From an uncultured Verrucomicrobiota bacterium (GTDB lineage Bacteria > Verrucomicrobiota > Verrucomicrobiia > Limisphaerales > UBA8199): DNA of 49,793 nt. The notes below the pieces were generated by a model. The model made no database searches. It was not told the origin of the DNA and saw only the letters and a program-made list of their open reading frames with translations. Made by a program: the position numbers and the translations under genes. This document shows positions 793-8,445 of this stretch, in pieces (positions within the stretch are counted from its first letter, which is position 1; each line of letters begins with the position of its first letter). Location of the stretch: NCBI GenBank assembly GCA_903873945.1, contig CAIQQM010000250.1, forward strand, positions 1-49,793, given 5' to 3'.

Positions 793-899
793 TCAGGCCG
801 CATCGTCACTAGAGCGGTTTAATTAAATCTGTAGCCGTCACCTCCAAGAAAATGCCAATGTTATTGCGGATTTTGCGCCTTTTTGCGGCCACGAATCCA

Positions 900-1271
900 A
901 TGAAAAACTCCGTTGCCCTGCGCATCGCCGCCGTATCCGGTTTGCTTGCGGTGACCCTCGGCGCCTTCGGCGCGCATGGACTCAAGGAAGTGCTCGCCCG
1001 AAACGGAACCACTGCAATTTGGGACAAAGCCGTGCTCTACCAGTTCATCCACACGGTGATGCTTTTCATCCTGGGCGGGCGCACCCCATTGCGACTCGGC
1101 CCGTGGTTCTGTTTTTTGATCGGTATCCTTGTTTTTTCCGGCTCGCTCTATCTGCTGGCTCTCACGAATCTCCTCTGGCTGGGTGCCATCACCCCTGTCG
1201 GCGGCATCAGTTTCATCGCCGGCTGGCTGTGGCTGGCGGTTGCGCCTTTGGCAAAAGGTAGTGCTGGATAA
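900..1271 (+). CDS. DUF423 family inner-membrane protein (YgdD-like)
   Basis: This 123-residue protein has about four hydrophobic segments and the DUF423 signature: an N-terminal helix followed by GAFGAHGLK (residues about 21-29), then YQFIHTVML, GSLYLLALTN and a C-terminal TPVGGISFIAGW. The family is widespread in bacterial inner membranes and has no settled function. The start at ATG 900 gives the usual family length and a short charged N-terminus; the open frame extends 16 codons upstream without similarity. It converges on the efflux operon, separated by a MITE-like element. Confidence 0.82.
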   Translation: MKNSVALRIAAVSGLLAVTLGAFGAHGLKEVLARNGTTAIWDKAVLYQFIHTVMLFILGGRTPLRLGPWFCFLIGILVFSGSLYLLALTNLLWLGAITPVGGISFIAGWLWLAVAPLAKGSAG

Positions 1272-1605: not shown

Positions 1606-4600
1606 TCAACGTTTGGCCGCCTGTTGCTCGCTCTCCCATCCTCCCCCCAGCGCCTTGTAAATCGCCACCAGGCTGGTCGCAGTGCGCGTTTCGCTCTGGG
1701 CTAGCTGTGCCTGCACGTCCAGTTGTGTGCGTTCGGCATCGAGTACAGGCAGAAAATCAGCCACGCCGCTGTCGTACCGCTGCCGGGCAAGCCCCATCGC
1801 TTCGGTTGCCGAGCGTTCGGACTGTCTCAGGTAATTACGGCGCACCTGTTCCTTTCCAAAATCCACCAGCGCGTTCTCCGTTTCCTCCAGCGCGGTCAAA
1901 ACGGTCTTTTCGTAGGCGGCCAGTTGGCCGTCTGCGTGAGCGTTCGCGGCCTTGATGCGGGCGAGGACGTGACCAAGATCCAGCGCCGCCCACGTGATGC
2001 TCGGGCCAAAGGAATAGTTGTCGGCGCCGTTCTTAAGGAGACCCGAAAATTGATTGGCTTCCACCCCGATGCTGCCGTTGAACGTGACGCGCGGGAAAAG
2101 GCTGGAGGTCTCCACACCAATCCGCGCCGTGGCGGCGGCAAGCGAGCTTTCGGCCGACCGAATATCCGGACGCCGGCGCAAGAGCTCAGCCGGATTTCCA
2201 ATGCTGACCAGGGGCGGCAGGGCGGGAATGGGCGCCGGAGGTTCAAGCTCCGCTTCCAGCGCGGTCGGTTGCTGGCCGGTAAGGACTCCCAGCCGGTGGA
2301 TGGAATGTTTGACGACCGCTTCCAGCGGCGGGATGAACGCCAGCGTCGATTCGAACTGGGCTCTTGCCCGGGCGGTGTCGAGTTCCGTTGCGCGCCCAGC
2401 CCGCAGCTTTGAAACGGTCAGGTCCAGCGTTTCACGCTGGTTTTCCGCGTTCCGGTGGGCTACCGCCAGTTGGTTTTGCGCCCCCCTGAGTTCGAAGTAA
2501 TTGCGCGCCACTTCCGAAATAAGCGTGACGAGAACGTCCTGCCGGGCGGCGATCGTCGCGGCCACATCCGCCGTATCCGCTTGTATGGACCGGCGCACAT
2601 GCCCGAAGAAATCCAGCTCCCACGTCGCGTCAAAGCCCGCGTTGTAAAGGCTGCTTGTGCGTTGCTGGCGCGTTAGCGGAACGGCTGACGCGTCCTGGCT
2701 GGTCAATGACTTGTTATATCCAGCGTTGGCGTTCGCCACGGGAAACAGATCCGCGGCGGCGCCCATGCGCAGTGCCCGCGCTTCGAGGACGTGAGCGGTG
2801 GCAATGCGCAGATCCTGGTTCGTGGCGGCGGCAAGCTCTACGAGATGGTCGAGTAGCGGATCATTGAACCCGCGCCACCACCGGATTGTGGTCTGGCTCG
2901 GAGTCATGTTGGTTTGGTTCCCGTTGCCGAACGCGGCGCTCACTTCGGTTTTGGGCGGATGGAAATTGGGTCCCACGGCGCAGCCGTTCATGAGAAACGC
3001 CGATGCCAGGCCCATGAGACAAACCAATCCCACAGCTCCCGGCGTACCGTGGGTAGGCGCAGGCTGAGCGCCCGGCGGCTTCTGGCGCTCCAGCAAACGC
3101 CGGATCACCACGTAAAAGACCGGCGTGAGCACGACGCCGAAGAAAGTCACTCCCAGCATGCCGAAAAAGACCGCCGTTCCGATGGACACTCGCATTTCCG
3201 CGCCTGCACCGTGCGAGAGCATCAGCGGGATGACGCCAAACGTGAATGCCAATGATGTCATCAGGATCGGGCGCAACCTCAGGCGTGATGCCTCGATTGC
3301 CGCCTCCATCCGGCTCCGCCCGGCATCCTGTAACTGCCTGGCGAACTCGACGATCAGAATGGCGTTCTTGCACGCCAGACCCATCAAAACGACCAGACCG
3401 ATCTGGGTGAACAGGTTGTCGTCCAGGCCCCGTAGCCACACGCCGAAAATGGCGAATAGCAGGCACATCGGCACGATGAGAATGATCGCCAGCGGTAGCG
3501 ACCAGCTCTCGTATTGCGCTGCCAGCACTAGGAACATCATCAGCACGCACAGCGGGAAAATGTAAATCGCGGTGTTGCCCGCCAGGATCTGCAACAGGTT
3601 CAGCTCCGTCCATTCAATCGCCATGCCGCGCGGCAGCACTTTCCGTGCGAGGTCTTCCATGAGCTTGATGGCTTCGCTGGTGCTCACGCCCGGCCCGGTG
3701 CTGCCGTTGATTTCGGCTGTGGGGTACATGTTGTAATGGCCCACCAGCACCGGCGCGTTGATGTCCTTTACCGTGACCAGTGTGCCCAGCGGTACCATCT
3801 CCCCGTTTGTGTTCCGCGTCTTGAGGTTCTTCACATCCTCGGGTTTGGCCCGGAACGGCGCGTCCGCCTGCGCCGTGACGTGGTACGGCCGCCCGAATAG
3901 CGTGAAGTCGTTGATGTACAGCGAGCCGAGATAAATTGAGAGCGTGTCCCAAACCTCGTCGAGCGGCACATGCATGGACTCGGCCTTGGCGCGGTCCACA
4001 TCCAGGAAAACCTGCGGCACACCGGCCCGGAAGGTCGAGAGCGGTTGCGTGATTTTATTCGTCTGTGCGGCTGCGGCGCCTATCAATTGGAATGTTGCCG
4101 CCTGCAACGCCGCATATCCGGAATTCGCCCGATCTTCCACCTGCAGCTTGAACCCGCCCAGTGTCCCCAGCCCATCCACCGGCGGGGTGCCGAACACGCC
4201 GACAAAGGCTTCTTGGATATTGGCGGCGGCCAGTTTCTTCCGCAGGTTGCCGATGATCACGTCCGCCGTCAGACCCTTCTTCACTCTCTCTTCGAATGGA
4301 CTCAGCCGGATGAACATGCTCGACGCGTTTGCGCTGTTGCCCAGCGACACCAGCGACAGGCCGGCGAACTCCGACACGACCGCGATGCCGGGCGTGTCCT
4401 TGACGAGTTTCATGACTCTCTCGCTCACCACCTCGGTGCGCTGTAGGGACGCGCCGTCCGGGAGTTGCAGGTAGCAGAAAATATTGCCCTTGTCCTGGGA
4501 AGGGATGAAACCCGTCGGCACCTTGTTAAAGCCGAACCACGTCAGCCCGAGCAGGGCGGCATAAAGCACCAGGGTGACGCCGCAATGCCGCAGGACTCGG

Positions 4601-6219
4601 CCGAGTACCCGCACGTAATTGACTCGCCCGCCTTCGAACACCCGGTTGAAGATGTTGAACAGCCACCCCACCGAACCGTGCATCACCCGCCCGATCCTGT
4701 CCTTCGGCGCATGATGCGGCTGGAGCAGGAGCGCGCTCAGCGCCGGGCTCAGCGTCAGCGAGTTGAACGCCGAGATCAGCGTCGAGATCGCGATCGTCAG
4801 CGCGAATTGCTGGTAGAATTTCCCCGTGATCCCGCTGATGAATGCCGTCGGAATAAACACCGCGCTCAACACTAGCGCAATCGCGACCACCGCCCCGCTC
4901 ACCTCGTCCATGGCTTTGTGCGTCGCCGCCGTCGGTGAGAGCCCCTCCGCAATGTGCCGCTCCACGTTCTCCACCACCACAATCGCGTCATCCACCACGA
5001 TCCCGATGGCCAGAACCAGCCCGAACAGCGACAGGTTGTTGATCGAGAACCCGAACACCTTCATCGCCGCAAATGTCCCGATCAGCGACACCGGCACGGA
5101 CACCAGCGGAATCAGCGACGCCCGCCAGTTCTGCAGGAACAGCACCACGACGAATACCACCAGGAGTATCGCCACGATCAACGTCTCGATCACCGCCCGG
5201 ATCGACTCCCGGATGAACGCCGACGTGTCGTAAGCGATCCGGTAATCCAGCCCATCGGGAAAGTCCTTTTTCAACTCCTTCATGGCCGCTTCGATGGCAT
5301 TGGCCGTCTCAATGGCGTTCGAGCCCGGTTGCTGGAAGAGCGCGATCGCCGCCGACGGCCGCCCGTCGAGCCTGCTGTCGATGCTGTAGTCGCTGGCAGC
5401 CAGTTCAATCCGCGCCACGTCCCGTAGTCGCGTGATCTGCCCGCCGGCATCCGCCTTCAATACGATGTCCCCGAATTCTTCCGGCATCACCAGCCGCCCC
5501 TTCGTCCGCACCGCGAGCTGGAACAGGTTGTTCGCGGGCTGTGGCGCCTGCCCGAATAACCCTGCCGCCACTTCGACGTTCTGCCGGCGAATCGCCGCGA
5601 CAACGTCCCCGGCCGTCAGGTTTCGTGCCGACACCTTGTTCGGATCCAGCCAGATGCGCATGCAATAATCGCGCGCGCCGAAGATGATCGAGTCGCCCAC
5701 GCCCGGTAGCCGCGCCAGCACGTCCCGCACGTGCAGATACGCGTAGTTGCTCAAATACACCGGGTCGTACTTGCCCGTCGGCGAAATCAGGCTCACCAGC
5801 ATCGCGATACTCGGCGAGCGCTTGCGCGTGATCACACCCAGCGCGCGCACCTCTTCCGGCATTCGGGGCAGCGCGCCGTCCACCCGGTTTTGCACCAATA
5901 CCTGCGCGATGTTCGGGTTCGTTCCCACCTTGAATACGACCGCCAGCCGCATCTGGCCGTCGCTGCTGCATTGGGCGGACATGTAAAGCATGTTTTCCAC
6001 CCCGTTAATCTGTTCTTCCAGCGGTGTGGCCACCGTGTTGGCCACCGTGTCCGCGCTGGCTCCGGGATACGAGGCGATGACGAAGATCGTCGGCGGCGTG
6101 ATCTCCGGGTACTGGGCTATCGGCAGAGTAAACAGCGCGATCGCTCCCAATAACACGAACATGATGGACAACACCGACGCAAAGATCGGCCGGCGAATGA
6201 AAAAATGAGAGAATTTCAC
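1606..6219 (-). CDS. RND efflux pump fused in frame to a NodT-type outer-membrane factor lipoprotein
   Basis: The frame encodes 1537 residues. Residues 1 to about 1040 are a full AcrB/MexB-type proton-driven pump: N-terminal helix IRRPIFASVLS, proton-relay pair DD in GIVVDDAIVVVENV, and the conserved Lys in GLACKNAILIVEF. With no stop codon the frame continues into a complete outer-membrane factor (residues about 1080-1537; NodT/TolC-like start CAVGPNFHPP, double alpha-helical repeats). Cys1080 (codon 2980-2982) sits in a lipobox, LMNGC, after a hydrophobic stretch. A Shine-Dalgarno-like GGGAGC (3040-3035) lies 7 bases before an in-frame TTG (3027), so the lipoprotein could also be started separately. 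It is the last gene of the tetR efflux operon. Substrate is unknown. Confidence 0.93.
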   Translation of the reverse strand: MKFSHFFIRRPIFASVLSIMFVLLGAIALFTLPIAQYPEITPPTIFVIASYPGASADTVANTVATPLEEQINGVENMLYMSAQCSSDGQMRLAVVFKVGTNPNIAQVLVQNRVDGALPRMPEEVRALGVITRKRSPSIAMLVSLISPTGKYDPVYLSNYAYLHVRDVLARLPGVGDSIIFGARDYCMRIWLDPNKVSARNLTAGDVVAAIRRQNVEVAAGLFGQAPQPANNLFQLAVRTKGRLVMPEEFGDIVLKADAGGQITRLRDVARIELAASDYSIDSRLDGRPSAAIALFQQPGSNAIETANAIEAAMKELKKDFPDGLDYRIAYDTSAFIRESIRAVIETLIVAILLVVFVVVLFLQNWRASLIPLVSVPVSLIGTFAAMKVFGFSINNLSLFGLVLAIGIVVDDAIVVVENVERHIAEGLSPTAATHKAMDEVSGAVVAIALVLSAVFIPTAFISGITGKFYQQFALTIAISTLISAFNSLTLSPALSALLLQPHHAPKDRIGRVMHGSVGWLFNIFNRVFEGGRVNYVRVLGRVLRHCGVTLVLYAALLGLTWFGFNKVPTGFIPSQDKGNIFCYLQLPDGASLQRTEVVSERVMKLVKDTPGIAVVSEFAGLSLVSLGNSANASSMFIRLSPFEERVKKGLTADVIIGNLRKKLAAANIQEAFVGVFGTPPVDGLGTLGGFKLQVEDRANSGYAALQAATFQLIGAAAAQTNKITQPLSTFRAGVPQVFLDVDRAKAESMHVPLDEVWDTLSIYLGSLYINDFTLFGRPYHVTAQADAPFRAKPEDVKNLKTRNTNGEMVPLGTLVTVKDINAPVLVGHYNMYPTAEINGSTGPGVSTSEAIKLMEDLARKVLPRGMAIEWTELNLLQILAGNTAIYIFPLCVLMMFLVLAAQYESWSLPLAIILIVPMCLLFAIFGVWLRGLDDNLFTQIGLVVLMGLACKNAILIVEFARQLQDAGRSRMEAAIEASRLRLRPILMTSLAFTFGVIPLMLSHGAGAEMRVSIGTAVFFGMLGVTFFGVVLTPVFYVVIRRLLERQKPPGAQPAPTHGTPGAVGLVCLMGLASAFLMNGCAVGPNFHPPKTEVSAAFGNGNQTNMTPSQTTIRWWRGFNDPLLDHLVELAAATNQDLRIATAHVLEARALRMGAAADLFPVANANAGYNKSLTSQDASAVPLTRQQRTSSLYNAGFDATWELDFFGHVRRSIQADTADVAATIAARQDVLVTLISEVARNYFELRGAQNQLAVAHRNAENQRETLDLTVSKLRAGRATELDTARARAQFESTLAFIPPLEAVVKHSIHRLGVLTGQQPTALEAELEPPAPIPALPPLVSIGNPAELLRRRPDIRSAESSLAAATARIGVETSSLFPRVTFNGSIGVEANQFSGLLKNGADNYSFGPSITWAALDLGHVLARIKAANAHADGQLAAYEKTVLTALEETENALVDFGKEQVRRNYLRQSERSATEAMGLARQRYDSGVADFLPVLDAERTQLDVQAQLAQSETRTATSLVAIYKALGGGWESEQQAAKR

Positions 6220-6262: not shown

Positions 6263-7414
6263 TCAAGAGCCCGCTCGAGCTTTTTCTTTGCCTTGCCTTG
6301 CGTTGTCCGCTGTTTGCGCGTCCACTTTCGCTCCGGGCCGCAGCATCATCAGGCCGTTAATCACTACGCGGTCATCCGGCTTTAAACCCTTGAGCACCGC
6401 CCGCTGCGCGCCATGCGCCCGCCCGGTCTCGATCGAGCGCGTCTGCGCCTTGCCGTCTGGGTCCACCACGAATACGTACTTGTAGCCCTGGTCCGAGCCG
6501 ACGGCCACATCGGGAATCAGCAGTGCATGCTCCGCCGGACCATCCGACACCCGCACGTTGGCAAACATTCCCGGCACCAGCTCGCGCGTTGCATTATCGA
6601 GCACGGCGCGCAGTCGAATCGTTCCCGTCTGCGGATTCACTTGGTTGTCGAAAAAATCCAGTCGGCCCAGGTGCCGGAATCCCTGTTCGTTTACTAGCCC
6701 CAGCTCGCAAACCTCTGTTCCCAGCGCCCCGCCTGCGTTGCCCCGGTACTTCAGGAACGCCCCTTCCGCCACGTCGAAGTAACAATAAACCGGGTCCATC
6801 GAAACGATCGTCGCCAGTACAGTTGATGCCCCGCCGTTGCCTTGCAGTTGAACCAGGTTGCCGGGAGTCACCAGTCGGCGCCCGATTTTCCCGCTGATTG
6901 GCGCTTTGATCTGCGTGTAATCCAGGTTGATCCGGGCGGTCGTTTCGGCCGCTTTCACGGCGGCTACGGCGGCTTCGGCCTCCCGGGCCGCGTTTCTGCG
7001 GCTGTCGTACTCCTCTTCGGAAATCGCCTTCGTGCCGCGCAGGCTTTCGGCGCGATGCAGGTCGTCCTGGGTGAGCTGAAGGTGCAGCTCGGCCTGCTCC
7101 CGCTGGGCCCGGGCGTGTTCCAGGTCCGCTTCGTAAGGCCGGGGATCAATTACGAACAGCAAGTCCCCCGCTTTCACCTCCGCCCCGTCCGTGAAATGGA
7201 TCGAGTCAATGTAGCCGGAAACACGGGGCCGGATTTCCACCATCTCGACCGCCTCTAGATGACCCGGGTATTCGTCCCAGTTGGTCACCGTGGCGGCCTG
7301 CGGTTGGCTCACCGTCACCTTCATGAGTGGCGGCGCGGCCGCTTTGGGCGGTGAACATGCCGTTAAAACTGCGGCACAAATAACTGGAACCAGGAATATT
7401 ACAGGATTTTTCAT
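6263..7414 (-). CDS. Periplasmic adaptor (membrane fusion) lipoprotein of the RND pump
   Basis: The 383-residue protein is an AcrA/MexA-type adaptor that would bridge the inner-membrane pump and the outer-membrane factor. It starts MKNPVIFLVPVICAAV with lipobox LTAC (Cys20), then a lipoyl-like beta segment (VEIRPRVSGYIDSI), a coiled-coil hairpin (about 90-165), a second lipoyl half (IKAPISGKIGRRLVTPG), a beta barrel (FFDNQVNPQTGTIRLRA) and a membrane-proximal domain. Length is typical. It precedes the pump gene by 43 bases and follows the CBM48 gene by 33, so the genes are probably co-transcribed. Confidence 0.93.
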   Translation of the reverse strand: MKNPVIFLVPVICAAVLTACSPPKAAAPPLMKVTVSQPQAATVTNWDEYPGHLEAVEMVEIRPRVSGYIDSIHFTDGAEVKAGDLLFVIDPRPYEADLEHARAQREQAELHLQLTQDDLHRAESLRGTKAISEEEYDSRRNAAREAEAAVAAVKAAETTARINLDYTQIKAPISGKIGRRLVTPGNLVQLQGNGGASTVLATIVSMDPVYCYFDVAEGAFLKYRGNAGGALGTEVCELGLVNEQGFRHLGRLDFFDNQVNPQTGTIRLRAVLDNATRELVPGMFANVRVSDGPAEHALLIPDVAVGSDQGYKYVFVVDPDGKAQTRSIETGRAHGAQRAVLKGLKPDDRVVINGLMMLRPGAKVDAQTADNARQGKEKARAGS

Positions 7415-7447: not shown

Positions 7448-7771
7448 TCAACTGACCGCTACCAGTGACACCGGCTCGTTGCGCTCGTTATACACTTTTC
7501 CGACCGCGTTCGGGTCCAGTGTCGGCTTTCCGTCCACCATGAACAGGTACCGCTGGTGGCCTTGCGGCAATGAGACCCGGACCACCCACCCTCCATCCGG
7601 CATTCTTGTCATCGGGTTCGCTGCCGGGTCCCATTCGTTGAAATCGCAAATCAGGCTCACGCTCTTCGCTTTCGGGGCGCGGCAGAAAAAATCCGTCGCG
7701 TAAAGCGGCTTCTTGGATGAGACCCGTCGCGGCGGACCGCTCGGTTTCGATTCGGAAGGTTTTGCGTTCAT
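7448..7771 (-). CDS. Small CBM48 / AMPK-beta-type glycogen-binding domain protein
   Basis: The 107 residues are one early-set carbohydrate-binding domain (CBM48/AMPK1_CBM) after a basic, proline-rich N-terminus. The signature is VSLICDFNEWDP, GGWVVRVSLPQGHQRYLFMVDG and DPNA, with the aromatic residues that stack on alpha-glucan in related domains. No catalytic domain and no signal peptide are visible, so it is presumably cytoplasmic. Its ATG overlaps the tetR stop by four bases, so it is translated with the regulator. A glucan-binding protein in an efflux operon is unexpected; it may bind glycogen or act as a protein-interaction module. Confidence 0.85.
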   Translation of the reverse strand: MNAKPSESKPSGPPRRVSSKKPLYATDFFCRAPKAKSVSLICDFNEWDPAANPMTRMPDGGWVVRVSLPQGHQRYLFMVDGKPTLDPNAVGKVYNERNEPVSLVAVS

Positions 7772-8445
7772 GTAATGGAAAAATTGGGTTGCGGCTTCCT
7801 GTGGCTCGCGGTGGCGCTAAATCCCGCCGAGAAAAAGTCGATCATCTCGGCCAGCACCTTCCCGGCATCGGCCGGGTTGCAGGCCCCATGTGTTTCCAAT
7901 TCAATCTTGCGGGGATTGCACAGGATGAACGCCAGTGCGCCCCAGACGAATTCGATCCGCCACTGCAGGTCCGCCAGCGGGACTTTGGGCAGACTGGTCT
8001 GCAGGGCCTTGAGAAACGCTGCCCGCACCTCCGAACGCTGGCCTCGCAGGATTTCTTGCGTCTGCTCGTCCGGCTCGGTCAAAATCCGGCCCATCAGCCG
8101 GGTGACGGCCTGCCGTTTCCCCGCCGGAGCCGACGCCAGCCGCAACGGCGGCAGCAGCATGGCTTCCAGTATTTTTTCCACCGGCAGCGGCCGCCCTTTG
8201 GCCTCGCGCTCGAACTGTCGCAAAACGTCGAGATGTTCCTGGCGTAGCGGACCAAACCGTCGTTTCAGCACCGCCTCCATCAAGCCGTTTTTTGAGCCAA
8301 AATAATAATAAACCGTCGCCAGGTTCACTCCCGCCCCTTCCACGATGTCCCGCAGCGAGGCGCCGTTGAATCCGCAATCGGCGAAGGCATTCTCCGCGGC
8401 ATCTAGGATTTTCGTCCGGCGGCACGCTTCAGTTCGTTTGGCCAT
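7768..8445 (-). CDS. TetR/AcrR-family transcriptional repressor of the efflux operon
   Basis: This 225-residue regulator has an N-terminal TetR helix-turn-helix (residues about 8-55: ILDAAENAFADCGFNGAS, VNLATVYYYFGSK) and a C-terminal ligand domain of the CecR/YbiH (DUF1956) kind, with the motif LMGRILTEPDE. A perfect palindrome ends 8 bases before the start codon, consistent with autorepression. It is first in the operon, coupled to the CBM48 gene by ATGA overlap and followed by adaptor and pump. The family commonly controls RND pumps; the inducer cannot be read from sequence. Confidence 0.92.
   Translation of the reverse strand: MAKRTEACRRTKILDAAENAFADCGFNGASLRDIVEGAGVNLATVYYYFGSKNGLMEAVLKRRFGPLRQEHLDVLRQFEREAKGRPLPVEKILEAMLLPPLRLASAPAGKRQAVTRLMGRILTEPDEQTQEILRGQRSEVRAAFLKALQTSLPKVPLADLQWRIEFVWGALAFILCNPRKIELETHGACNPADAGKVLAEMIDFFSAGFSATASHRKPQPNFSIT

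Follow-up and report, generated by a model that had tools for sequence, protein, structure and literature searches.

In the tripartite RND efflux systems MexEF-OprN and OqxAB, the pump and the outer-membrane factor (OMF) are encoded by separate genes, and the C-terminus of RND pumps is established to lie in the cytoplasm. The CusA/CzcA-TolC heavy-metal pumps of Bacteroidetes are annotated in databases as an RND pump and an OMF in one chain, and fused RND-OMF chains may thus already be present there. Bacterial polyproteins that are cut by signal peptidases are rare. One of them is encoded by fbcH of Bradyrhizobium, a cytochrome b/c1 polyprotein cut by signal peptidase I, in which an internal signal peptide connects a membrane protein to a second protein that is exported.

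The locus studied here lies in a window (the whole stretch of 49,793 nucleotides that was analysed) that forms one of the 312 contigs of a draft genome of 3.48 Mb. An uninterrupted frame of 1537 codons encodes an RND pump followed by an OMF (Table 1). The first-pass annotation had described this arrangement, with an internal lipobox (LMNGC, Cys1080) between the two parts; both were confirmed, and 50 distinct junctions of such single-frame fusions are now known. The RND part is complete and matches NCBIfam RND_permease_1 (1377 bits against a cut-off of 1250, residues 4-1041), which places it in the HAE1 family, as well as TIGR00915 (1151 against 940, residues 3-1048 of the fused protein); the nearest curated models are RND_permease_1 and OqxB. 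The OMF part is of the NodT type, with a match to TIGR01845 (outer_NodT; 363 bits against 210) that covers residues 1072-1527 and profile positions 2-460 of 460, and with an OprN-like fold. The gene immediately upstream encodes an adaptor (TIGR01730, 284 against 94.9), whose best profile is MexE, but with a score below the equivalog cut-off (364 against 714). An adaptor gene is found in this position in all 36 fused loci in which it could be tested. By its HAE1 permease, adaptor and NodT-type OMF, the system is classed as MexEF-OprN-type, with drug export as a predicted function. A gene for a CBM48/AMPK glycogen-binding-like protein of 107 amino acids (7448-7771, minus strand) is located between those for the adaptor and the TetR-type regulator, and genes for DUF6941 and DUF423 proteins (307-792 and 852-1271, plus strand) flank the other side of the fused gene.

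Table 1. Coordinates of the fused gene, its parts and its upstream neighbours in the window.
Feature	Position	Strand	Remarks
Fused RND pump-OMF gene	1606..6219	-	1537 aa, start GTG
RND permease domain, MexF/OqxB type (HAE1), residues 1-1048	3076..6219	-	RND_permease_1 and TIGR00915
Linker, residues 1049-1065	3025..3075	-	Not conserved among the 23 aligned group A junctions
Hydrophobic stretch, residues 1066-1079, ending L-M-N-G; predicted signal peptide h-/c-region	2983..3024	-	Helix predicted, low confidence
Cysteine of the lipobox (Cys1080), proposed site of lipidation and of cutting by signal peptidase II	2980..2982	-	Cys in 23/23 group A junctions
Mature OMF (predicted), OprN-like, residues 1080-1537	1609..2982	-	TIGR01845; Foldseek matches include OprN 5iuy
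Periplasmic adaptor (MFP), MexE-like, with lipobox-like LTAC	6263..7414	-	43 bp upstream of the fused gene
TetR-family regulator	7768..8445	-	Upstream, same direction as the fused gene

The pump ends in a charged tail, RRLLERQK (residues 1041-1048), directly before the linker; tail and linker together would serve as the n-region of an internal signal peptide. The junction reads ...RRLLERQKPPGAQPAPTHGTPGAVGLVCLMGLASAFLMNG-C1080-AVGP. An AlphaFold2 model of residues 1030-1537, built from 15 sequences, reached a mean pLDDT of 70 and a pTM of 0.64. The OMF helices were modelled with confidence and the linker and signal helix were not (block-mean pLDDT of about 31-45 at the hydrophobic helix), a point that counts against reading the junction as a cleavage site. 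The best Foldseek matches of the modelled OMF include OprN (5iuy, E 8e-26) and OprM (E 4e-19). OMFs such as OprM and CusC carry acylated N-terminal cysteines, according to PMC4486845.

Relatives were collected in several searches. Within the family of the window, the C-terminal 585 residues of the fused protein served as query against 13 genomes. A single-frame fusion was present in four of these, namely the genome of the window, G004, G006 (where it is cut by the contig end) and G007, while a stop codon separates pump and OMF in G001 and G008 (loci L071 and L072); the remaining seven genomes gave remoter matches only, or none. A stop between the two parts in close relatives, which the first-pass annotation had named as an argument against its reading, is thus found in two members of the family, whereas four others carry the fused form. 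In the sister genome G001, pump and OMF genes share an ATGA overlap. This state could have come from splitting of the fused form or could have preceded it, as a small insertion or deletion could yield the fusion from it, or the reverse. In the unfused locus of G008, about 180 bases of odd, repeat-like sequence are found in the OMF frame, after the stop codon of the pump and before the lipobox.

A search at the level of the order matched 87 of 196 genomes, and 60 loci were picked by hand from the better matches of the family and order searches. Including the window, 41 of these 61 loci are fused in one frame, two (L086 and L093) are in one frame across the junction but contain a gap or frameshift at a point further upstream, and in 18 pump and OMF are separate or the stretch contains no OMF. 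Scanning named genomes yielded 80 loci, 15 of them fused, eight of which repeat junctions of the first set. In total, 50 distinct fused junctions were obtained from 58 loci. A class-level search matched 23 of 286 genomes and gave unbroken frames outside the order as well (families f143 and f144); these were left out of the total, as, judging by frame length, at least some of them seem to repeat records from the named-genome scan. The phylum-wide search, for which a type I junction (see below) was used as query, covered 387 genomes; it matched 15 of them at a total of 16 places, which include the window, and revealed no new unbroken fusion: two long frames reaching over the junction (G388 and G385) contain in-frame stops, and another of 1053 codons (L144) has no RND match. 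In a search of at least 5000 plasmid records, two-piece matches were among the 30 matches listed.

Given that the window comes from a draft genome in 312 contigs, its continuous frame might reflect a stop codon lost to sequencing or assembly error, or the gene might be a decaying pseudogene. Both are refuted by the fused relatives, with 50 distinct junctions, one of which (L083 in G107) is located in a single-contig genome of 4.7 Mb; in addition, both domains are complete and score above the family cut-offs. We therefore give an artefact or pseudogene practically no weight.

The junctions themselves fall into two main groups. Group A comprises the 23 window-type fusions, in which the lipobox is strongly conserved: the cysteine and Gly(-1) are present in 23/23, Leu(-3) in 19/23 and Ser, Thr or Asn(-2) in 20/23. 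Positions -14 to -4 are uncharged in 22 of the 23, and the preceding linker varies in both sequence and length. In the window and the 22 other group A fusions, the lipobox cysteine is predicted to form the N-terminus of the mature OMF. The first-pass annotation had suggested a polyprotein with an internal lipobox for signal peptidase II, to be checked by searching relatives for the fusion and for conservation of the cysteine. Both were found, and this comparison strongly supports the suggestion.

What the first-pass annotation could not see is a second fused OMF lineage with a type I signal peptide. This group B contains 26 junctions, and its OMFs and pumps are about 30% and about 57% identical to those of the window, respectively. 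The cysteine is lacking in 23 of the 26, most of which have a signal peptidase I site, A-x-A/G (the slash marks the cut), at nearly the same place. Ala(-3) occurs in 17, Ala(-1) in 19 and Gly(+1) in 18 of these 23, with a variable residue between the two alanines. A simple type I rule fits 21 of the 23; the site in L094 fits nearly and is imperfect, and L086 has no clear site, both of which speak against cleavage at these two junctions. A lipobox is found in the other three group B junctions (L087, L088 and L090), which suggests a change of signal peptidase class inside a mostly type I fused lineage. A further fused locus (L111, in G170), whose pump is only remotely similar (39% identity) and which has a lipobox of its own, may represent a third fusion.

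The 50 junctions thus consist of 27 with a lipobox and 23 of type I, 21 of the latter conforming to the rule, each forming a candidate internal signal peptide behind a membrane protein. Pump tail and linker provide at least three K/R residues before the hydrophobic part in every lipobox row, and at least two in every type I row. In 19/27 lipobox and 19/23 type I rows, the strength of the hydrophobic stretch exceeds that obtained from shuffled linkers (p<0.05). Conservation within the junctions is highest at the cleavage motifs, which is hard to explain without cutting. With a predicted cutting signal of one of two types retained at the joint, the chain is probably cut in two after synthesis.

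Alternatively, the chain could stay uncut and form a single-chain pump spanning two membranes. In favour of such a chain are the unbroken frame and the topology, which a 13th helix would make correct. However, the conservation is concentrated in the cleavage motifs, and it affects just the positions recognised by signal peptidases, while in group B the residue separating the two alanines is free to vary, which is hard to explain for an uncut chain. Its dimensions fit no better. Solved tripartite pumps are 33 nm tall, their OMF and RND components are without mutual contact, and a stoichiometry of 3:6:3 has been suggested (PMC4754349). Only about 30 residues separate Cys1080 from the first OMF helices, and a linker of that length would be far too short to bridge both membranes of a 33 nm assembly. 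From these lengths, rather than by calculation on coordinates, we judge that a few tens of residues could not possibly reach from one membrane to the other, and consider an uncut chain highly improbable.

A third explanation is that ribosomes also, or only, produce the OMF by starting internally within the fused frame, whose continuity would then be an accident of overlap. Separate translation from a GGGAGC-TTG pair had been proposed for the window. GGGAG and an in-frame TTG (codon 1065, 3027-3025) are present there, followed by 15 residues from TTG to the cysteine, without K or R; the pair is absent from the closest relatives (L069, L070 and L073), and this site was rejected as not conserved. 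We searched the lipobox junctions for in-frame ATG, GTG or TTG codons in the region that begins at the pump tail and stops 15 residues short of the cysteine. Such a start is present in 17 of the 27, which is near the 13.1 expected from base-shuffled linkers, and 10 junctions have none before the signal peptide. A start followed by K/R occurs in only 11/27 fused lipobox rows, none of the 11 with a match to the Shine-Dalgarno core, compared with 74/74 unfused OMF frames (ATG in 71), a count that excludes rows identical to another, 5'-open rows and known duplicates. Shine-Dalgarno motifs are rare even at the real pump starts of the same loci (4/21 and 4/17, or 8/38), so that their absence inside the frame says little; having little power, they were dropped as a discriminator. 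In the type I set, all 23 junctions keep an ATG, which is a possible start of a long signal peptide and as such counts in favour of internal initiation in this set. This ATG is usually the Met of an LMK-like pump motif, however, and is a pump residue also found in some unfused pumps (L107, L125, L129 and L131). Taken together, internal initiation appears unlikely.

The OMF tree bears on the origin of the fusions. Groups A and B stand apart in it on long, well-supported branches, and in a larger, quick tree of 73 rows each group includes unfused members. Those alongside group A stem from Verrucomicrobia, Methylococcaceae, Planctomycetota and others, and those alongside group B from the same bacterial class. 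In both lineages, the signal peptides of unfused OMFs are of these same two kinds, each with its own start; among the relatives of group B, these are of type I in L129, L131, L134, L135, L141 and L143, and lipoboxes in L130 and L133. As the OMFs of groups A and B belong to separate lineages that each have unfused members, the trees place the fusion at least two times, with a predicted cleavable signal peptide kept inside the chain each time. The fewest changes between fused and unfused states on the 73-row tree number nine, a soft figure given that many forks are open. In a quick pump tree, L071 and L072, although unfused, branch from within the fused group A clade, an indication that splitting occurred as well as fusion.

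Our main reading is that the fused gene encodes a polyprotein that would be cut by signal peptidase II (or I) to give pump and channel in a 1:1 ratio, to which we assign a probability of close to four in five. From the single frame, the conservation of cleavage motifs in two fused OMF lineages and the presence of both LspA and Lgt genes in the genome of the window, we infer membrane insertion, lipidation, cleavage and a stoichiometric benefit. After translation of the gene into one chain, the pump would insert with its C-terminus in the cytoplasm, and its positively charged tail would act as the n-region of an internal Sec signal peptide. As a 13th helix, this signal peptide would bring the chain back across the membrane and export the OMF. 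Lgt would then lipidate Cys1080 and LspA would cut before it, upon which the OMF would move to the outer membrane, leaving the old signal peptide attached to the pump. In group B, signal peptidase I would make the cut. One transcript and one pass of the ribosome would thereby yield the 1:1 ratio that a 3:6:3 pump needs.

In broader terms, we consider it likely that this is an envelope machine for which one polyprotein supplies the inner-membrane as well as the outer-membrane component, the two being separated by ordinary signal peptidases. It would have arisen at least two times in one bacterial class, with a lipoprotein channel released through Lgt and LspA and with a mostly non-lipidated channel released by signal peptidase I. 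The signal peptide, without a start and n-region of its own, would borrow the pump tail, remain as a 13th pump helix and so fix the 1:1 ratio. If this is true, Lgt and LspA accept internal signal peptides, pump-channel stoichiometry can be hard-wired, and blocking LspA in these bacteria should also disable an efflux pump. Automated annotation may call such genes pump only and miss the channel.

We know of no other polyprotein that signal peptidase II splits into products destined for two membranes. A literature search, by title and the beginning of the abstract, found no natural RND-OMF fusion or signal peptidase II polyprotein, nor did it list a paper on how the fbcH product is processed; no such fusion or polyprotein is described in the available parts of PMC8277102, PMC4827864 and PMC10434189. 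With MexEF-OprN and OqxAB, the locus shares the adaptor, pump and OMF families, the operon order and the OMF fold, OprN being among the best structure matches; it differs in having pump and OMF in one frame with the OMF signal peptide inside. The CusA/CzcA-TolC pumps, likened here by their database annotation, likewise join RND and OMF in a single chain, but belong to a different RND family. The layout also resembles that of fbcH, where an internal signal peptide lies between a membrane protein and a second protein that is exported, and a signal peptidase separates the two. However, fbcH uses signal peptidase I only and its partners stay in one membrane, whereas the fusions described here are predicted to use signal peptidase II and lipidation as well, and to send their products to two membranes. 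While the components are ordinary, the internal lipobox and the repeated evolution with two classes of signal peptidase appear to be new.
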